From assembly GCF_000331995.1 (NCBI RefSeq), contig NC_020134.1:1-64000 (forward strand): 64,000 nt of DNA. Direction: 5' to 3'. Under the pieces are notes generated by a model. It was not told where the DNA came from and did not search any database. It saw only the letters and a program-made list of their open reading frames with translations. Origin of the DNA: Thermoclostridium stercorarium subsp. stercorarium DSM 8532. GTDB taxonomy: Bacteria > Bacillota > Clostridia > DSM-8532. Numbering within the stretch: position 1 is the first letter of the stretch; every line of letters begins with the position of its first letter. This document shows positions 44,945 to 52,757 of this stretch, piece after piece. A program made the translations under genes and the position numbers.

Positions 44945-46900
44945 GTGAGATTTTGTAAAATCACCGTCGGAGACTATGAGATACCCGTGTATTCCTGCAA
45001 CACCGTTATTGCAGGAAGCGGTGCCGCAGGCCTGAGTGCCGCGGTCAGGCTTTATGATTTCGGTCAGAAGGATATCGCAATAGTGACCGAGGACATTTCA
45101 GCCGGCACATCCCGGAATACCGGCTCGGATAAGCAGACGTATTACAAGCTTTCGCTTGAAGGCTCTGAACCCGATTCGGTAAGGGAAATGGCTGAAACTT
45201 TGTTTGAAGGACAGTGTGTGGACGGAGACATAGCTTTGGTGGAGGCCGCATTGTCGGTTCAATGTTTTATGAAACTGGTGGATATGGGCGTTCCGTTTCC
45301 TGTGAACAGATACGGGGAATTTATCGGCTACAAGACCGATCACGACCCGCGGAAACGGGCAACCTCTGCAGGTCCCCTTACGTCCAGGCTGATGACCGAG
45401 GCTTTGGAAAGAGAAGTCCGCGAAAAAAACATACCTGTTTTTGAGCACCTCCTTATTGTTAAAATCCTGAAAGAGAACGATAAAGTTGCCGGATTACTGT
45501 GCCTGAATCTGACGCCCGGCTGTGACAGGGAAAAGATGTTTACCGCGTTCTGCTGCAAAAACATTGTTTACGCCACAGGCGGCCCGGCGGGCATGTATGC
45601 CCATTCAGTGTACCCCGAAAGCCAGCACGGCGCAACCGGGGTGGCTTTTCTGGCGGGAGTGAGGGGCAAAAACCTTACCGAATGGCAGTATGGCCTGTCG
45701 TCGGTAAAGCCGAGGTGGAATGTGTCGGGAACATATATGCAGTGCCTACCGTGCTTTTTTTCCACAAGGCAGGACGGTTCCGACAGGAAAGAATTCTTAA
45801 GGGAATATTTTAAAAATGACGGGGAACTTCTTTCAAAAACCTTTTTGAAGGGATATCAGTGGCCGTTTGACGTGAGAAAGGCCAGAAAAGGGTCGTCGGT
45901 AATAGATATTCTTGTTTATATTGAGCTGTTTTTAAAAAACCGGCGTGTTTTTCTTGATTTCACAAAAAATCCTGTTCAGAATATTGATTTTTCGGTATTG
46001 AATGATGAAGCATACAATTACCTTAAAAAAGCAGGGGCACTGTTTGGCACCCCGGTGGAGAGGCTTCTTCATATGAACGCTCCGGCGGTGGAGTTTTATA
46101 AAAACCACGGCATTGATCTGTCAAAGGAGCCACTTGAAATAGCCCTCTGTGCGCAGCATAACAACGGTGGGCTTGATGTTGACATCTGGTGGCGGACCAA
46201 TATTGAAGGCTTGTTTGCCGTCGGAGAGGTTGCGGCGACCCATGGCGTATACCGGCCCGGCGGCAGTGCGTTGAACGCGGGTCAGGTAGGGGCTTTCAGG
46301 GCCGCAAGGTTCATTGCGTCAAAACGCACAGGTGATCCTGCGGATATTGCATCCTTTGAGGAAATAAGCCGTCCTCAGATTGAAGAAATAACGGGGCTCG
46401 CCGCAAAGGTTTTTAAAAACCGTTCCAATGTGAATGAATTGCTGGATTATACCCGCAGGAGGATGAGTGAGGTTGCTGCAGCCGTGCGGGATATCCACAG
46501 AATTGAGGAATATATCCGGTATGTTGCAGGCCTGATTGAAAATTTTGCCGAAAAGGTTTGCATCAGCGACAGGCGGGAACTTAAAGATGTATTCATCCTT
46601 TACGACACGCTGATAAGCCAGTATGTGTATTTAAACGCAATGAAAGATTACATCGAGCGCGGGGGAAAAAGCAGGGGTTCTGCGCTGTATTATGATCCCG
46701 ACGGGGAATTAATCGGAAATCTGCCTGAAATGTTCAGGTTTAAACCCGATGATCAAGGCATGAGCAACATGGTGCAGGAAGTAACCCTCACCAGAACAGG
46801 TGTAAAGTTTAACTGGCGTCCGGTAAGACCGATCCCTGCCGAAGACGGCTTCTTTGAGAATATATGGCGGCTTTTCAGGGAGAACGGTAGTGTTTATTAG
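44945..46900 (+). CDS. FAD-dependent oxidoreductase (fumarate reductase/L-aspartate oxidase-like)
   Basis: The 651-aa flavoprotein has the FAD-binding GxGxxG motif TVIAGSGAAGLSAAVRL at about residues 20-36, followed by TEDISAGTSRNTGSDKQ and, near the end of the FAD domain, FAVGEVAATHGVYRPGGSALNAGQVG. The C-terminal helical region matches the succinate dehydrogenase/aspartate oxidase superfamily. Substrate cannot be inferred; the canonical HXXR-type catalytic Arg context differs. GTG 44945 follows GGGGG at 44931. It closes the operon before the metNIQ promoter. Confidence 0.82.
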   Translation: MRFCKITVGDYEIPVYSCNTVIAGSGAAGLSAAVRLYDFGQKDIAIVTEDISAGTSRNTGSDKQTYYKLSLEGSEPDSVREMAETLFEGQCVDGDIALVEAALSVQCFMKLVDMGVPFPVNRYGEFIGYKTDHDPRKRATSAGPLTSRLMTEALEREVREKNIPVFEHLLIVKILKENDKVAGLLCLNLTPGCDREKMFTAFCCKNIVYATGGPAGMYAHSVYPESQHGATGVAFLAGVRGKNLTEWQYGLSSVKPRWNVSGTYMQCLPCFFSTRQDGSDRKEFLREYFKNDGELLSKTFLKGYQWPFDVRKARKGSSVIDILVYIELFLKNRRVFLDFTKNPVQNIDFSVLNDEAYNYLKKAGALFGTPVERLLHMNAPAVEFYKNHGIDLSKEPLEIALCAQHNNGGLDVDIWWRTNIEGLFAVGEVAATHGVYRPGGSALNAGQVGAFRAARFIASKRTGDPADIASFEEISRPQIEEITGLAAKVFKNRSNVNELLDYTRRRMSEVAAAVRDIHRIEEYIRYVAGLIENFAEKVCISDRRELKDVFILYDTLISQYVYLNAMKDYIERGGKSRGSALYYDPDGELIGNLPEMFRFKPDDQGMSNMVQEVTLTRTGVKFNWRPVRPIPAEDGFFENIWRLFRENGSVY

Positions 46901-46920
46901 GTAAAAATTCCAAAACCCTA

Positions 46921-46949
46921 TTGACATATAAGAAAAACTGTTATATTAT
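46921..46949 (+). promoter_or_regulatory. Promoter of the metNIQ leader transcript
   Basis: A perfect TTGACA at 46921-46926 and TATTAT at 46944-46949 are separated by 17 bases. The predicted start is about 46956, giving roughly 240 nt of leader before the attenuator terminator ends. The -35 lies only 21 bases after the stop of the FAD gene. Confidence 0.8.
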
Positions 46950-46993
46950 CACACTAATCAGTTCTTATTTTATTTTGAGGTAAGGAGTGCATT

Positions 46994-47119
46994 ATGAGAA
47001 CCAACGTATCGGCATATTTGAATATGAATGCTTCCGATATGTGTCTTTCAGATATGTACATGTGTATGTGCATGTCCATGCCGTGCTGTTCTCATATTGC
47101 TTTCTGCTCCTATCTTTAG
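46994..47119 (+). CDS. Met/Cys-rich leader peptide of metNIQ, 41 aa
   Basis: The 41-codon frame has an excellent ribosome site (AAGGAG ending seven bases before the ATG). It contains 8 Met and 6 Cys residues, clustered at codons 16-32: MCLSDMYMCMCMSMPCC. The flanking peptide is unremarkable (starting MRTNVSAYLNMNASD), so it has no function as an ordinary protein. Its promoter and terminator leave no other product. Met codons are 46994, 47024, 47039, 47054, 47060, 47066, 47072, 47078; Cys codons are 47042, 47063, 47069, 47084, 47087, 47105. The final codons (47099-47113) form the antiterminator strand. A leader peptide of attenuation, analogous to TrpL, is the best call. Confidence 0.75.
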   Translation: MRTNVSAYLNMNASDMCLSDMYMCMCMSMPCCSHIAFCSYL

Positions 47120-47184
47120 TATCACTGTACATATAGAAAGATCTTATGAATGATTTATCATAGAAAAAGTAGGAAGCAGAAAGC
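47099..47184 (+). promoter_or_regulatory. Antiterminator pairing of the metNIQ attenuator
   Basis: GCTTTCTGCT at 47099-47108 is exactly complementary to AGCAGAAAGC at 47175-47184. CCTA at 47109-47112 then pairs with TAGG at 47170-47173, leaving A47174 bulged, and T47113 can wobble with G47169. The 14-15 bp helix uses the 5' arm and loop of the terminator, so the two folds exclude each other. The upstream strand lies in codons 36-40 of the leader peptide, where a ribosome finishing translation at the stop codon (47117-47119) would cover it. Confidence 0.7.
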
Positions 47185-47199
47185 TTCCTACTTTTTTTT
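47166..47199 (+). terminator. Attenuator terminator ahead of metN
   Basis: AAAGTAGGAAGC at 47166-47177 pairs perfectly with GCTTCCTACTTT at 47183-47194 around AGAAA, and a run of eight T residues ends at 47199. It stands 20 bases before metN, in a position where it would stop the metNIQ transcript unless antiterminated. Confidence 0.9.
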
Positions 47200-47218
47200 G
47201 GTTTGAGGGGGATATTAA

Positions 47219-48217
47219 TTGATAAGCCTGAGAAATCTGTGCAAGACCTTTGAAACGGCCAATGGGCCAGTGGAGGTTCTGAAAAATATCGATCTGGATA
47301 TAAAAAAAGGTGAAGTCTTTGGCATTATAGGGCTGAGCGGTGCGGGAAAAAGTACGCTGGTCCGATGTATCAACCTTCTGGAAAAGCCCACTTCAGGAGA
47401 AATAATTTTCGACGGAATGAATCTGATGAAATTAAGCAGGAAGGAACTTCTTAAAGTAAGGCAGTCCATGGGCATGGTATTTCAGAGTTTTAACCTTTTA
47501 CAGCAGCGGACGGCGTTAAAAAACGTGTGTTATCCACTGGAAATTGCCCATGTTCCGAAAGACAGGGCAAGGAAAAAGGCTGTTGAGTTGCTGGAGATGG
47601 TCGGGCTGGCGGATAAACTGAACGCTTACCCGTCCCAGTTATCGGGCGGGCAGAAGCAAAGGGTTGCAATTGCGCGGGCTCTGGCAACCGATCCAAAAGT
47701 CCTGCTGTGTGACGAAATCACCAGCGCGCTTGATCCGAACACAACCCGCTCTATTTTGGAGTTATTGCAAAACATAAACCGTACCATGGGAGTCACGATA
47801 GTGATGATAACTCATGAAATGGAGGTTATTGAGCAAATATGCCATCGTGTTGCGGTAATCAACGGTGGCAGGATTGTGGAGATGGGTGACGTTAAGGAGG
47901 TTTTCCTCAGACCCCGTTCCGAAACCGCAAAGCAGCTTATCCTGCCAAAGAGCGGCGAAATACACAGAATGACCGGGAAAAAATGCCTGCGCATAATTTT
48001 CGACGGCAATTCCGCCTTTGAACCCATTATTTCAAACATGACCCTTGAGTGCAGGGCGGTTGTGAACATATTGTATGCAAACACGAAAAGTATTGAAGGA
48101 AAAGCCTACGGCGAAATGCTTCTGCAGCTTCCCGACGATGAAACGTCAATAAAGCGGATACTTGCGTACCTCGACGAAAAAGGAATTTATTACAGGGAGG
48201 AAGAGATAAATGTTTGA
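47219..48217 (+). CDS. metN: Methionine ABC transporter ATP-binding protein
   Basis: The 332-aa ATPase has Walker A GLSGAGKSTL, Q-loop FQSFNLLQQRTALKNV, signature LSGGQKQR, Walker B LLCDEITSALDP, and the MetN-type sequence PTSGEIIFDGMNLM. A C-terminal NIL domain (about residues 255-332) binds methionine and inhibits transport when Met is high. The start is TTG 47219, with GAGGGGG at 47205-47211 seven bases upstream, and lies after the attenuator. It overlaps metI by eight bases. Confidence 0.93.
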   Translation: MISLRNLCKTFETANGPVEVLKNIDLDIKKGEVFGIIGLSGAGKSTLVRCINLLEKPTSGEIIFDGMNLMKLSRKELLKVRQSMGMVFQSFNLLQQRTALKNVCYPLEIAHVPKDRARKKAVELLEMVGLADKLNAYPSQLSGGQKQRVAIARALATDPKVLLCDEITSALDPNTTRSILELLQNINRTMGVTIVMITHEMEVIEQICHRVAVINGGRIVEMGDVKEVFLRPRSETAKQLILPKSGEIHRMTGKKCLRIIFDGNSAFEPIISNMTLECRAVVNILYANTKSIEGKAYGEMLLQLPDDETSIKRILAYLDEKGIYYREEEINV

Positions 48218-48872
48218 CAGGGGAATGCTTGAATTACTGGGAATGGGAATTCTGGAAACGCTGTATATGACGGTGGGTTCCACGGCGCTGGCATATGCAT
48301 TCGGCCTGCCCCTCGGTGTACTGTTATACGTGACCGACAAGGACGGTATTTATCCGATACCGGCTGTAAATAAAATACTGGGATTTATAATCAACTTTCT
48401 TCGCTCGGTTCCTTTTCTGATTTTGCTTGTGTTCCTTATTCCGCTTACACGGGCGATTGTGGGAACGACAATAGGTTCCACCGCAACGATTGTACCGCTT
48501 GTAATTGCCGCTTCGCCGTTTGTGGCAAGGATGGTTGAGTCTTCACTGAAAGAGGTGGACGGAGGAGTCATCGAAGCGGCTCAGTCAATGGGAAGCACCA
48601 CGTTTCAGATAATATACAAGGTTCTTCTTCCCGAAGCCAAGCCTTCGCTCATAATAGGAGCCGCAATTACGATAACCACGATACTTGGATATTCGGCAAT
48701 GGCGGGTTTTGTCGGGGGCGGAGGCCTTGGTACGATAGCGGTGAATTACGGATATTACAGGTATCAGCGTGATGTTATGGCTGTTACGGTGGTTTTGCTT
48801 GTAATCATTGTTCAGATATTTCAGGAAGTCGGTATGCGAATTGCAAAGCATTCGGACAAAAGGATTAAGTAA
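48210..48872 (+). CDS. metI: Methionine ABC transporter permease
   Basis: The 220-aa integral membrane protein has five hydrophobic segments and the MetI pattern: LETLYMTVGSTALAYAFGLPLG, then NFLRSVPFLILLVFLIPLTR and IEAAQSMGSTTFQIIYKVLLPEA, the EAA loop that contacts MetN. ATG 48210 overlaps the end of metN, with AGGGAGG in the metN coding end. metQ follows after 33 bases. Confidence 0.93.
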   Translation: MFDRGMLELLGMGILETLYMTVGSTALAYAFGLPLGVLLYVTDKDGIYPIPAVNKILGFIINFLRSVPFLILLVFLIPLTRAIVGTTIGSTATIVPLVIAASPFVARMVESSLKEVDGGVIEAAQSMGSTTFQIIYKVLLPEAKPSLIIGAAITITTILGYSAMAGFVGGGGLGTIAVNYGYYRYQRDVMAVTVVLLVIIVQIFQEVGMRIAKHSDKRIK

Positions 48873-48905
48873 ATTTATTAAATAAAATATAAAAGGAGGA
48901 TGAAT

Positions 48906-49715
48906 ATGAAAAAATTTTTAAGTGTACTTATTTTTCTTACATTGTTTGCTTCTTTGCTGACAGGCTGCAACAAAACCGAAAAGAACACCACCATCAAGGT
49001 AGGCGCAAGTGTTACACCCCACGCCGAAATTCTTCAGGTTGCAAAAGAAATTCTGGCTGAGAAGGGATATAATCTTGAAATTATAGAGTATAACGACTAT
49101 GTACTCCCCAATATTGCCACCGACACCGGAGAACTTGACGCCAATTATTTCCAGCACCTTCCGTACTTACAGAATTTTAATGAGGAAAACGGAACAAAGC
49201 TTGTTTCGGTTGCAGCCATTCACTATGAACCCTTCGGGATTTACCCCGGAAAAACAAAGTCCCTTGATGAGCTTAAGGACGGAGCGGTTATAGCAATTCC
49301 TAACGACGGTACAAATGAGGCAAGGGCGCTGAAACTTTTGGAGGCTCAGGGATTAATCAAGTTAAAAGAGGATGTGGGCTTTACCGCAACGGTGCTTGAT
49401 ATCGAGTCGAATCCGAAAAAACTTGTGATTAAGGAAATGGAAGCCGCTCAGCTTGCAAGGGCATTACAGGATGTGGATCTTGCGGTTATTAACGGGAACT
49501 ATGCCATTGAAGCCGGACTGCACGTCAACAGGGACGCACTTGCAATTGAAGACAAAGAATCCGAAGCCGCTCAGACATATGCGAACATAGTGGCCGTAAA
49601 GGAAGGAAATGAAAACAACGAAGCAATTAAGGCGCTGATAGAAGCACTTAAGAGCGAGAAAGTAAAAGAATTCATAAATAAAAAGTATGAAGGTGCGGTT
49701 ATACCGGTATTCTAA
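48906..49715 (+). CDS. metQ: Methionine-binding lipoprotein
   Basis: The 269-aa protein has a lipoprotein signal MKKFLSVLIFLTLFASLLTG with the lipid-modified Cys at residue 21. The remainder fits the NlpA/MetQ family: VGASVTPHAEIL, YNDYVLPNIATDTGELDANYFQHLPYL and VAAIHYEPFGIYPGK. It captures L- or D-methionine outside the cell for MetNI. AAAGGAGG sets ATG 48906; ATG 48900 is an alternative but overlaps the ribosome site. An 11-bp terminator follows, so the operon is metNIQ only. Confidence 0.94.
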   Translation: MKKFLSVLIFLTLFASLLTGCNKTEKNTTIKVGASVTPHAEILQVAKEILAEKGYNLEIIEYNDYVLPNIATDTGELDANYFQHLPYLQNFNEENGTKLVSVAAIHYEPFGIYPGKTKSLDELKDGAVIAIPNDGTNEARALKLLEAQGLIKLKEDVGFTATVLDIESNPKKLVIKEMEAAQLARALQDVDLAVINGNYAIEAGLHVNRDALAIEDKESEAAQTYANIVAVKEGNENNEAIKALIEALKSEKVKEFINKKYEGAVIPVF

Positions 49716-49749
49716 AATGGCTTAAATTAATATCCCCCAAATATTTAAA

Positions 49750-49796
49750 AACAATGCCGGGTTAACTTTGAAAAAAACCGGCATTGTTTTTTTTTT
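49750..49796 (+). terminator. Intrinsic terminator after metQ
   Basis: AACAATGCCGG at 49750-49760 pairs perfectly with CCGGCATTGTT at 49778-49788, followed by a run of T residues. Confidence 0.92.
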
Positions 49797-49921
49797 GCTG
49801 CAAGTTTATATGACTTTTTGTCTTCTTCAGAAAACTTCGGTTCATTGTCAAATTAATCGCCCGGACCAAAAGAGGTTGTATTTGTAAAAGTTATTCAGGA
49901 TTAAGAAATTGACTGATTAAG

Positions 49922-49951
49922 TTGACAAACAGCTCAAAACGGCAATATACT
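49922..49951 (+). promoter_or_regulatory. Promoter of tldD-tldE
   Basis: TTGACA at 49922-49927 and TATACT at 49946-49951, spacer 18 bases. The predicted start is about 49958, 38 bases before the tldD start. Confidence 0.65.
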
Positions 49952-49995
49952 ATTTTTAAACTATTCACTGAACATTTTAGTTAGGGGGCTTCACA

Positions 49996-51381
49996 TTGTT
50001 AACGACGGGTGAAATGGAAAAAATCCTTCAGACTGCTCTTTCGGGCGGCGGAGATTTTGCAGAGCTTTTCTTCGAAGACAAGGACGAGTTAAATATAAAA
50101 TGTTCCCAGCAGGTTTTGAAGGGCGTAACCAGCGTGCACATCTTTGGAGCTGGAATTTATGTGCTTTCGGGAACACGGAGTGTGTATGTTTACACGAATA
50201 ATTTATCCTATTCAGGACTTCTGGACGCCGCAAGAAGAGCAGCGGAACTGCTGGATTCCTGCGAAAGGCTGGACAGAGGGCAAATTATTTTTTCAATGCA
50301 ACGTGTGAAGAACCCTAACTCGGTAACCGAATATCCCGGAACTGTACCCATTTTGAAAAAAATTCAGGTGGTAAGGGAAACCGATGCCGCCGCAAGGAGC
50401 ACAGGGCACACCGTAAGGCAGCTGAATGTTGATTATTTCGATACCGATCAGCGAATCCTTATAGTGAACAGCGAGGGATTATACGCCGAAGACAGGCGGA
50501 TAACAACCCGGTTGCGTATACAGGCCACTGTAGAGGATGGAAACAACAGCCATTACGAATGGGCCGACTTTCCAAGCCCGCACGGTTTTGAAACATTCAG
50601 AGACAAAAATGATTATATTTCCTTTGCAAGGAATTTCATTAATGATATGGCCGACAGTCTCCATGCCGTAACCGTTCCGTCCTGCGTCGTTCCTGTCGTC
50701 TTTGAAGCCGGCTCATGCGGGGTATTATGGCATGAAGCCTGCGGGCATCCGCTGGAGGCGACTGCAATTGCGGCGAATAACAGCGATTTTGTCGGAAAAC
50801 TGGGCCAGAAGGTTGCTTCTACAAAAGTCACGATTATTGACGACGGTTCGATACCGGGGATGTATGGTTCGGCCGCCATTGATGATGAGGGGCATCCGAC
50901 ACAAAAAAACGTACTGATTGAAAACGGGATCCTGAAGGGGTATTTGTGTGACAGACTGGGCGGCAGAAAACTGAACATGCCGTCTACGGGCAGCGGAAGA
51001 CGTCAGGGGTATATGTTCCCTCCCGCCGCAAGGATGACCAACACATACCTGGCTCCGGGCACCGATGATGAGGATGAGATGATCAGGACAATTGACGAGG
51101 GGCTTTTTGTAAAACGTTTGGGCGGCGGTGACAGCGGAAGGGAATTCTCGGTAGCGGTGACCGAAGGCTACTGGATAAAGGACGGAAAAATAGGCCCCCG
51201 GGTAAAAGGTCTGACACTTAATGCAAGAGGCATTGACCTGATAAACAAGGTGGATCGGGTAGGAAGCAAGTTAAAACCCGACAGCGGAGGTTTTTGCGGT
51301 TCTGTTTCGGGGCTCGTTACTACAACAAGCTTTCAGCCGAGAATACGCGTTTCGTCGATGACTGTAGGCGGGGAGGGATAA
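49996..51381 (+). CDS. tldD: Metalloprotease TldD
   Basis: The 461-aa protein has the zinc motif HEACGHPLEA (HExxxH) near residue 246, with GDSGREFSVAVTEGYWI and TTTSFQPRIRVSSM-like C-terminal features. TldD forms a heterodimer with TldE; only TldD carries the catalytic metal. The complex degrades small, partly unfolded peptides and matures microcins in Enterobacteria. The start is TTG 49996, after TTAGGGGG. TldE begins two bases after the stop. Confidence 0.9.
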   Translation: MLTTGEMEKILQTALSGGGDFAELFFEDKDELNIKCSQQVLKGVTSVHIFGAGIYVLSGTRSVYVYTNNLSYSGLLDAARRAAELLDSCERLDRGQIIFSMQRVKNPNSVTEYPGTVPILKKIQVVRETDAAARSTGHTVRQLNVDYFDTDQRILIVNSEGLYAEDRRITTRLRIQATVEDGNNSHYEWADFPSPHGFETFRDKNDYISFARNFINDMADSLHAVTVPSCVVPVVFEAGSCGVLWHEACGHPLEATAIAANNSDFVGKLGQKVASTKVTIIDDGSIPGMYGSAAIDDEGHPTQKNVLIENGILKGYLCDRLGGRKLNMPSTGSGRRQGYMFPPAARMTNTYLAPGTDDEDEMIRTIDEGLFVKRLGGGDSGREFSVAVTEGYWIKDGKIGPRVKGLTLNARGIDLINKVDRVGSKLKPDSGGFCGSVSGLVTTTSFQPRIRVSSMTVGGEG

Positions 51382-51383
51382 AC

Positions 51384-52757
51384 ATGGACTTTATTGACAG
51401 ATATAAGAAAGCGGTTAGTAATTTACCTGAAAACATAAAGGAAGCTGAGGTTGACATAGAACGAAAAAAGAGCATACTTATCGGCGTAAGCGGCGGACAG
51501 ATTGTAAAAAGCGCCGATTCGGACGTTACATCGGTATATGTGCGCGCGTCGTCGGAAAAAACAGGTTATGCATATACCGAAGATCTTGATGAAGAACCGG
51601 ATAAAGTGATTTTAAAGGCTTACAATAACGGCATTGTTTCGGACGTCAGCAAAAGGGACGTAATAAACGCGCCTGAAACCGCATTTAATTCCGGTAACGC
51701 CCCAAAGTTTGAAAAGTATTTCGGGGAATCCGGCGTAAAATATTCCGGTATCATTGAAAAGGCGTTATTACTTGAAAAAATTGTCCGTGACGCGGTTCCG
51801 TCCTTAAGAAGTTCCTACGCGGGTATAAGGGTGGATACCTTTTCGTCCAGAGTTATTAATTCAAAGGGCGTTGATGTGTTTTTTGAAAGAAATGTTTATT
51901 ATGCCCAGATAAAAATTACCGCCGAGCTGCATGGGGAAAATGTGGATGCCGAGGCATCGGTTTCGTCCGGCTCTCTTGAAAGGCTTGATTTTGATTCTCT
52001 GACGGACAGAGTTAAAGATTTCCTCAGAACCAAAATGGAACCCGGCACTTTCAGGCCGGGGGAATATCCCGTCGTATTAAGCCCGAATGTCGGCGTAAAC
52101 ATCATGATGACAGCGTGGCAGCTGTTCAGCGGTTTTAAATACTGTGACGGCTCAACCGCACTGAAGGGAAGGCTTGGCGAGGTTATTGGCTCACCGGCGT
52201 TAAGTATTATTGACACACCTTTCCACAACAGTACCGGTTACTGCTTTCCATTTGACTGTGAAGGCACGCCGGGAAGGGAAACAATACTGGTGGACAATGG
52301 GAAATTCACAGGCCTTATGCATAATTTGTTCAGTGCGTCGCAGTTAAATGCCGAGCCCACCGGGAATGCCGGGAGGGTTGCACTGCTGACGGGCAATATA
52401 CCGACGGAAATAATTGTAACTCCGAAAATATGCTATATAAAGCCGGGCACCCGTCCGGCCGGGGAAATGCTTCAGAGCATGGGTGACGGTGTATATATAA
52501 CCGAATCTTATGATATATTCCATTCAATAAATATCGGTTCAGGGGATTTTGCAATTCCGTGCAGGGGCATTGTCATAAAAGACGGGAAGCCTTACCGTTC
52601 CGTTTCAGCTTTAACCATATGCGGGAACCTTACAGAGCTGTTCGGAAATGTGGAGGAGACGGGCAATGATCTGCTTATAGACGAATTTTTACTCAGAAGT
52701 TACTGCGTCGGATCGCCGAGTATCCGCCTAACGAAGCTGCAGGTAAACGGGAAATAG
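51384..52757 (+). CDS. tldE: TldE/PmbA-like partner protein
   Basis: The 457-aa protein aligns with TldE/PmbA: YVRASSEKTGYAYTEDLDEEP, then GEYPVVLSPNVGVNIMMTAW and STGYCFPFDCEGTPGRETILVDNG, with GDFAIPCRGIVIKDGK near the end. It lacks the HExxxH motif, as expected for the non-catalytic half. ATG 51384 follows GGAGGGAT two bases after the tldD stop, so the two subunits are cotranslated. Unlike many genomes the pair is not next to a bacteriocin gene here. Confidence 0.87.
   Translation: MDFIDRYKKAVSNLPENIKEAEVDIERKKSILIGVSGGQIVKSADSDVTSVYVRASSEKTGYAYTEDLDEEPDKVILKAYNNGIVSDVSKRDVINAPETAFNSGNAPKFEKYFGESGVKYSGIIEKALLLEKIVRDAVPSLRSSYAGIRVDTFSSRVINSKGVDVFFERNVYYAQIKITAELHGENVDAEASVSSGSLERLDFDSLTDRVKDFLRTKMEPGTFRPGEYPVVLSPNVGVNIMMTAWQLFSGFKYCDGSTALKGRLGEVIGSPALSIIDTPFHNSTGYCFPFDCEGTPGRETILVDNGKFTGLMHNLFSASQLNAEPTGNAGRVALLTGNIPTEIIVTPKICYIKPGTRPAGEMLQSMGDGVYITESYDIFHSINIGSGDFAIPCRGIVIKDGKPYRSVSALTICGNLTELFGNVEETGNDLLIDEFLLRSYCVGSPSIRLTKLQVNGK

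Follow-up and report, generated by a model that had tools for sequence, protein, structure and literature searches.

A methionine- and cysteine-rich leader peptide and putative ribosome-mediated attenuator ahead of metNIQ in Clostridia

In ribosome-mediated attenuators of the trp, his and leu type, translation of a leader selects between an antiterminator and a terminator. S-box or T-box RNAs are the usual explanation for methionine control in Firmicutes.

Several described leaders resemble the one reported here. The 29-residue leader metL of Streptomyces lividans TK24, which ends CMCRRMCAF, is located before metNIQ; its transcript is leaderless, and no typical intrinsic terminator was found by the authors, as far as the accessible part of the paper tells (PMC8079986). 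Examples of ribosome-mediated attenuators have been described in Actinobacteria, and the Mycobacterium cys-operon leaders contain Cys codons without an obvious terminator in the available portion of that source (PMC1262725). A Cys-codon uORF, uORFC-8-2, precedes cysS of Rhodobacterales (PMC8632094). In bacilli, His leader peptides replace T-boxes before hisS and hisZ, and a T-box has been reported ahead of a methionine transporter gene in Lactobacillus sakei (PMC2965389). Methionine is unmentioned in the main text of two structured-RNA surveys, to the extent that this text was available (PMC6429828, PMC8632094). A full-text literature search, outside which most subscription papers lay, yielded no methionine leader peptide described in Firmicutes. 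An earlier note on this DNA, made from the sequence alone, had known of no described example in the group; this holds for Clostridia in the literature searched and has to be qualified by the metNIQ leader of S. lividans (PMC8079986).

A leader peptide frame followed by an intrinsic terminator is located ahead of metNIQ in the window, which is the whole stretch of 64,000 nucleotides that was analysed (Table 1). Direct reading confirmed the promoter, the AAGGAG ribosome site, the 41-codon frame with 8 Met and 6 Cys codons and the cluster at codons 16-32 reported in the earlier note. The promoter is tied best among 12 promoter-like sites in 46000-51000, for which shuffles average 8.6 sites. Judged by its letters the frame is translated-looking, and the first feature of a trp-type attenuator, a short ribosome-site-led frame with a codon cluster for the relevant amino acid, is present. 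Two TldD/PmbA-like genes (49996-52757, below the NCBIfam cut-offs) follow metQ, and a promoter-like site, TTGACA-18-TATACT, is found between metQ and these genes at 49922-49951. The genome contains one match to PF02574 (homocysteine methyltransferase family), in an 801-aa frame, and because of this match the organism perhaps makes methionine besides importing it.

Table 1. Features of the metNIQ leader region and the genes behind it (positions in the window)
Feature	Position	Strand	Basis and remarks
Sigma-70-type promoter TTGACA-17-TATTAT	46921-46949	+	11/12 consensus; four relatives have comparable hexamers at this position, those of G019 being the weakest
Leader-frame ribosome site AAGGAG	46982-46987	+	Sequence; GGAG retained in 5/5 leaders
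Leader peptide frame MRTNVSAYLNMNASDMCLSDMYMCMCMSMPCCSHIAFCSYL	46994-47119	+	41 codons, 8 Met and 6 Cys; ATG at 46994, stop at 47117-47119
Start-codon stem, 5' strand	46994-47001	+	Pairs with 47088-47095; minimum-energy folds, all 5 leaders
Putative Met/Cys sensor codons 16-32	47039-47089	+	Sequence and relatives; stall positions compatible with antiterminator in modelled folding
Start-codon stem, 3' strand	47088-47095	+	Minimum-energy folds, all 5 leaders
Antiterminator, 5' strand	47097-47112	+	Last codons of leader frame; stronger register 47101-47112
Intrinsic terminator	47164-47199	+	Perfect 14-bp stem, AGAAA loop and T run; the 5 leaders share the same GTAGGAAGC arm
Antiterminator, 3' strand (terminator 5' arm and loop)	47169-47182	+	Computed pairing
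metN, methionine importer ATPase, TTG start	47219-48217	+	Best NCBIfam match MetN 353.8 bits, below curated cut-off 499.7
metI, permease	48210-48872	+	NCBIfam MetI 230.5 bits, above cut-off 212
metQ, binding lipoprotein	48900-49715	+	NCBIfam MetQ/NlpA 225.7 bits, just under cut-off 228.85

A terminator between the leader frame and the first gene, the second feature of a trp-type attenuator, is supported by the sequence, the folds and a lenient hairpin detector. Positions 47164-47177 pair with 47183-47196 around the loop 47178-47182, and the T run extends up to 47199. The terminator that had been noted before metN is present with a perfect stem, of 14 bp (47164-47199) and not of 12 bp (47166-47199) as first described. 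A consensus terminator scan does not list it, probably because bases of the T run take part in the stem; the folds show it clearly. The last codons of the frame are complementary to the terminator 5' arm and loop, as the earlier note had claimed: a duplex of 47101-47112 with 47170-47182, containing one bulge, was computed at -15.7 kcal/mol and is retained in relatives. This energy is equalled by 2.4% of the dinucleotide shuffles of the leader, so that the pairing in the window is persuasive through its conservation more than alone. The third feature, an antiterminator strand that is exclusive with the terminator and would be masked by a terminating ribosome, is met by computed pairing in five leaders (p 0.003-0.073), with p values of 0.024 in the window, 0.009 in G026, 0.025 in G024, 0.073 in G025 and 0.003 in G019. 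The predicted complementarity of any single leader is moderate, and the case for the antiterminator rests on its retention in the five.

The leader was present before metN in all four genus genomes examined, namely the window's genome, G026 (L003/L093), G024 (L004) and G025 (L005/L095); in G024, contig L004 ends inside the terminator and metN starts on another contig, L094. In genus g5 of the same family, one of three genomes carries the leader (G019; L006/L116), G021 has metN without a leader, and G020 has no metN above the cut-off. Alignment of the five leaders retains the frame, the ribosome site, the Met/Cys cluster, the strand TGCTTTCT and the arm GTAGGAAGC. The frames contain 41, 41, 39, 45 and 38 codons, and the stops lie 52, 44, 43, 41 and 51 nt from the terminators, respectively. 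Conservation in relatives, on which the earlier note had made its reading depend, was found for both elements: the frame is open in the window and the four other carriers (38-45 codons) with the Met/Cys cluster retained, and the antiterminator pairing is kept with loop and strand bases changed in two of them, G019 and G025, which pair in a register shifted 5'. Genes upstream of the leader look different by eye between home-clade genomes, and the leader therefore seems linked to metN. A long inverted repeat, CAAAAGGGCG ... CGCCCTTTTG, was seen by eye upstream of the leader promoter at about 1411-1475 of L004 and about 1785-1866 of L003.

A covariance model of the home leader detected the five known leaders at E 2e-30 or better in 33 genomes of the order. 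Four known leaders were detected in 391 class genomes, with no match for G019, which is not among the genomes listed. Among the weaker matches (E 7e-6 to 0.04), the middle portions of 23 loci (L133-L155) were inspected for Met-rich frames, and one turned up only in L142, where the reverse-strand match falls on the leader of the window itself. L143 is a reverse-strand match at the terminator of G019, whose leader went unreported, probably since the locus is off-centre; other off-centre loci could likewise be missed. Because the search adds no new leaders, the home leader is considered a narrow family, and the wider class came from codon content rather than from similarity.

The switch was modelled by masked folding, in which a ribosome was placed at each codon, the RNA was masked up to 16 nt beyond the first P-site base (an assumed size), and only the RNA from the mask edge to the end of the terminator loop was folded. 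In all five leaders, 11.8-13.5 antiterminator pairs are expected with any cluster Met in the A site, and zero or nearly zero from a few codons past the cluster through the stop. In the window, Met 29 and Cys 31 each give 13.2 expected pairs and Cys 32 gives 11.9; the value then falls to 5.3 for codon 34 and 0.1 for codon 36, and is 0 with the ribosome at the stop. Despite differing frame lengths, the cluster ends near the edge of the permissive zone in five of five leaders. In G025, which has a longer frame and cluster, the last Met (codon 34) is again at the zone edge. The cluster of G019 extends to Cys 26, where the zone also ends; that of G024 extends to Cys 30, with codon 25 as the last Met. 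Neither Met 31 of G019 nor Cys 38 of the window falls within the zone. Masked folding indicates compatibility and good placement of the cluster, not that Met is the signal, because every earlier codon is permissive too.

It is very probable, on sequence and modelled folding without expression data, that transcription of metNIQ is controlled by a ribosome-mediated attenuator of the trp type, with charged Met-tRNA, and probably also Cys-tRNA, as the sensed signal. The same reading in the earlier note gains support from the conservation, the lack of an S-box or T-box and the compatible masked folding. With enough Met and Cys, the ribosome would reach the stop and cover 47099-47112, the terminator would form, and metNIQ would be off. 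Under shortage of Met (or Cys), a ribosome stalled at codons 16-32 would leave this strand free to pair with 47170-47182, and RNA polymerase would read on into metNIQ. Initiation itself requires Met, which is a complication for any Met sensor.

In the minimum-energy folds of all five leaders, the ribosome site and start codon pair with a stretch just before and within the antiterminator strand; in that of the window, GGAG of the ribosome site (46984-46987) pairs also with CUCC at 47107-47110. The letters of the start-codon stem in G019 are UUUUGAAG with CUUCAAAA, replacing AUGAGAAC with GUUCUCAU (by eye). The stem could silence an untranslated leader. Its action as an anti-antiterminator was unsupported at equilibrium, as it coexists with the antiterminator in five of five leaders. 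Protector pairing is typical of trp and is arguably not required of every ribosome-mediated attenuator. Such pairing, forcing termination without translation, was not found by equilibrium folding without kinetics, in which the untranslated RNA still forms the antiterminator; because it does so beside the start-codon stem in all five leaders, no off state without translation is claimed.

The leader folds far better than its shuffles (z -5.7, 0/200), and this strong fold, together with a start-codon stem found in all five minimum-energy folds with a different sequence in G019, would also be compatible with a new metabolite-binding riboswitch, in which the stem closes a multi-branched fold that would bind a sulfur metabolite, the Met/Cys frame being incidental. 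This explanation is regarded as very improbable. Across the five-leader alignment the frame and the Met/Cys cluster are kept, while the inner hairpins differ and in several rows are disrupted. The covariation term of the consensus fold is unfavourable (+0.84, 5 rows), in part owing to a misalignment of G019 by one or two bases at the start-codon stem. Peptides from different families, surveyed below, are unlike by eye, and their leaders share codon content and no common fold. An Rfam scan of the leader region of the window detected no family at gathering score, and all matches at E up to 10 were far below the gathering scores. Neither the T-box covariance model (RF00230) nor the SAM riboswitch models (RF00162 and other Rfam) matched the leader at gathering score, and the earlier note had expected no hit from the Rfam SAM and T-box models.

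Arrest by the nascent peptide is held to be still less probable. In this explanation, the Met/Cys-rich peptide itself halts the ribosome in response to a metal or small molecule, and the terminator switch then operates as before; metal binding by such peptides is chemically possible, and the downstream switch would look identical. It is opposed by the variation of the peptides among families in which the downstream gene is still a Met importer, and by the absence of any NCBIfam match for the 10 leader peptides tested (10/10). The leader frames of the window's genome (G000) and G026 have 4, 6 and 11 differences at codon positions 1, 2 and 3, respectively, with 6 codons silently changed and a changed residue at 11 of 41, which indicates that the peptide drifts outside the cluster. 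Sensing of charged tRNA through leader translation remains the preferred reading.

Upstream regions of clostridial metN genes were surveyed in the family (32 genomes), a 391-genome class sample, 120 genomes of family f27 and 13 of f79 for a ribosome-site-led frame of 8-60 codons with at least 5 internal ATG in the last 450 nt before metN. A Met-rich leader frame was identified in 27 of 183 unique regions. The next codon reached 2 regions, the permuted codons AGT, GAT and GTA and the opposite-strand ATG 0, and the opposite-strand CAT (mirror of ATG) 3, and 100 dinucleotide shuffles gave a mean of 0.11 and a maximum of 1 region. A first count that included the named loci found 14 such regions among 196, against 2 for the next codon and a mean of 0.07 (maximum 2) for shuffles. 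A chance frame, or a microprotein acting elsewhere beside an ordinary terminator, is the least probable explanation, because about 1% of ribosome-site-led frames are Met-rich by chance (14/1,136 in 1.18 Mb of other locus sequence) whereas 27/167 are so before metN, the other-codon, opposite-strand and shuffle controls reach 3 regions at most, and the leader is conserved in the home clade.

Excluded from the 183 were the named loci L012-L091 (including L052, with a Met-rich leader present), L239 and L287 (no Walker A motif), L252 and L263 (metN start not located), the fragments L113 and L094, L004 (which has the leader but whose contig stops inside the terminator), regions shorter than 350 nt and identical duplicates; L281 was retained though its motif lies 219 nt off the expected point. 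The survey was made without G511 and without places ranked below G245:C1:4402804. Outside the 27 are L156, L250 and L261 (4 internal ATG each) and L276 (start near the limit of the scanned stretch).

The 27 leaders belong to 25 genomes and eight families (f1, f3, f18, f27, f43, f52, f54 and f79, tallied from tables). They are not 27 independent events, because f27 accounts for 16 of them and the home clade for 4, and several are closely related to one another. A hairpin with a T-rich tract lies between the frame and metN in 27/27 by a lenient detector, without a leaderless-region control, and some accepted T tracts are poor (L253, L281, L248). Among the 17 leaders tested for an antiterminator, 5 of them from the home clade, only 3 of the 12 outside it reached p<0.05, namely L220 and L248 (both p 0.003) and L052 (0.028); L156, L157, L160, L168, L177, L190, L247, L249 and L250 did not. 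No T-box or SAM element was detected at the 13 of 27 leaders scanned with Rfam, and the remaining leaders have no T-box within 2 kb among the matches listed (down to 96.8 bits). The survey suggests that Met-rich metN leaders are a class and not a single case.

L052 (Mageeibacillus UBA5436) contains, about 210 nt before metN, a very short Met-rich leader, MNKQNINMMMCMMFFIREGLLV, and a terminator, with the matching strand within the last codons (p 0.028). A homologous group of leaders, M-N-(H/Q)...MQMN..., is formed by L190, L257, L262, L266 and L267 (G265, G519, G440, G448 and G435, respectively); in the minimum-energy folds of this group, the stretch of early Met codons is paired with conserved sequence downstream of the stop, unlike the layout of the window.

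Enrichment of Cys was tested by comparing the 27 leaders, which were chosen by Met alone, with the other 140 ribosome-site-led frames from these regions. Cys makes up 91 of 758 non-Met residues (12%) vs 70 of 2,964 (2.4%), an odds ratio of 5.6 with p 4.6e-25, which is inflated by relatives. At least one Cys is present in 27/27 leaders and at least two in 25/27. The only other clear enrichment is that of Asn (odds ratio 2.3), and Glu and Leu are depleted. Since 58 of the 91 Cys codons adjoin a Met codon, a repeat-like ATG-TGY origin is not excluded. Joint sensing of Met and Cys is likely and not proved; the suggestion to this effect in the earlier note is strengthened by the enrichment and remains an inference.

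In other Clostridia a T-box or a SAM riboswitch can stand at the place of the leader. The window's genome contains 11 T-box matches, 8 of them above the cut-off and none at the metNIQ leader, and one S-box match, which precedes a metK-like gene (identified by eye). In the sister genus g2, a T-box above the Rfam cut-off precedes metN in 7 of 14 genomes; T-boxes also precede metN in 5 of the 9 named loci L012-L020 and in L174 and L186. Twelve aligned metN T-boxes keep ATG at the expected specifier position (by eye). SAM riboswitches were detected ahead of metN in L226, L233 and L234, those before metN of G137 being in tandem (L234:474-569 and 640-735). Many metN upstream regions have neither a T-box nor a SAM element at gathering score, e.g., 0/20 in one scan. 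G517 apparently contains two metN genes, C1 (L309) behind a Met-rich leader and C3 (L312) just downstream of a T-box. A home-made T-box pattern was discarded, as it missed every T-box found by Rfam.

The balance tips slightly towards a widespread, unrecognised class of metNIQ attenuators in Clostridia that reads Met and Cys as one sulfur-starvation signal and has arisen repeatedly, replacing T-boxes even between sister genera, with peptides that have common codon content and architecture and no ancestry between families. By the survey, leader translation seems to be the sensor in eight families of Clostridia and, in one family, occupies the place of a sister genus's T-box. The leaders offer a test case for the exchange of one tRNA-charging sensor for another, another for asking if a single leader integrates signals from two amino acids, and a simple annotation rule for the control of methionine uptake in Clostridia.

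The mechanism is known, and apparently the amino-acid pair and the group are new and the arrangement is recurrent. The trp, his and leu attenuators have in common a leader with codons of the sensed amino acid and an antiterminator opposed to a terminator, whereas the window leader combines Met with Cys, precedes a transporter operon, occurs in Clostridia and has a start-codon stem but no clear protector. The Rhodobacterales and Mycobacterium leaders are alike in having Cys codons as the proposed sensor and differ in using Cys alone before other genes. The His leaders of bacilli are likewise Firmicute leader peptides where relatives have a T-box, and differ in amino acid, gene and class. The T-box leaders before metN (RF00230) control the same gene with a tRNA-charging input and a terminator output, but bind tRNA directly without leader translation. 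The metL leader of S. lividans differs in its phylum, leaderless transcript, lack of a typical terminator according to its authors and a peptide unlike the clostridial ones by eye; like the window leader, it is short, lies before metNIQ and has Met and Cys codons together near its end.
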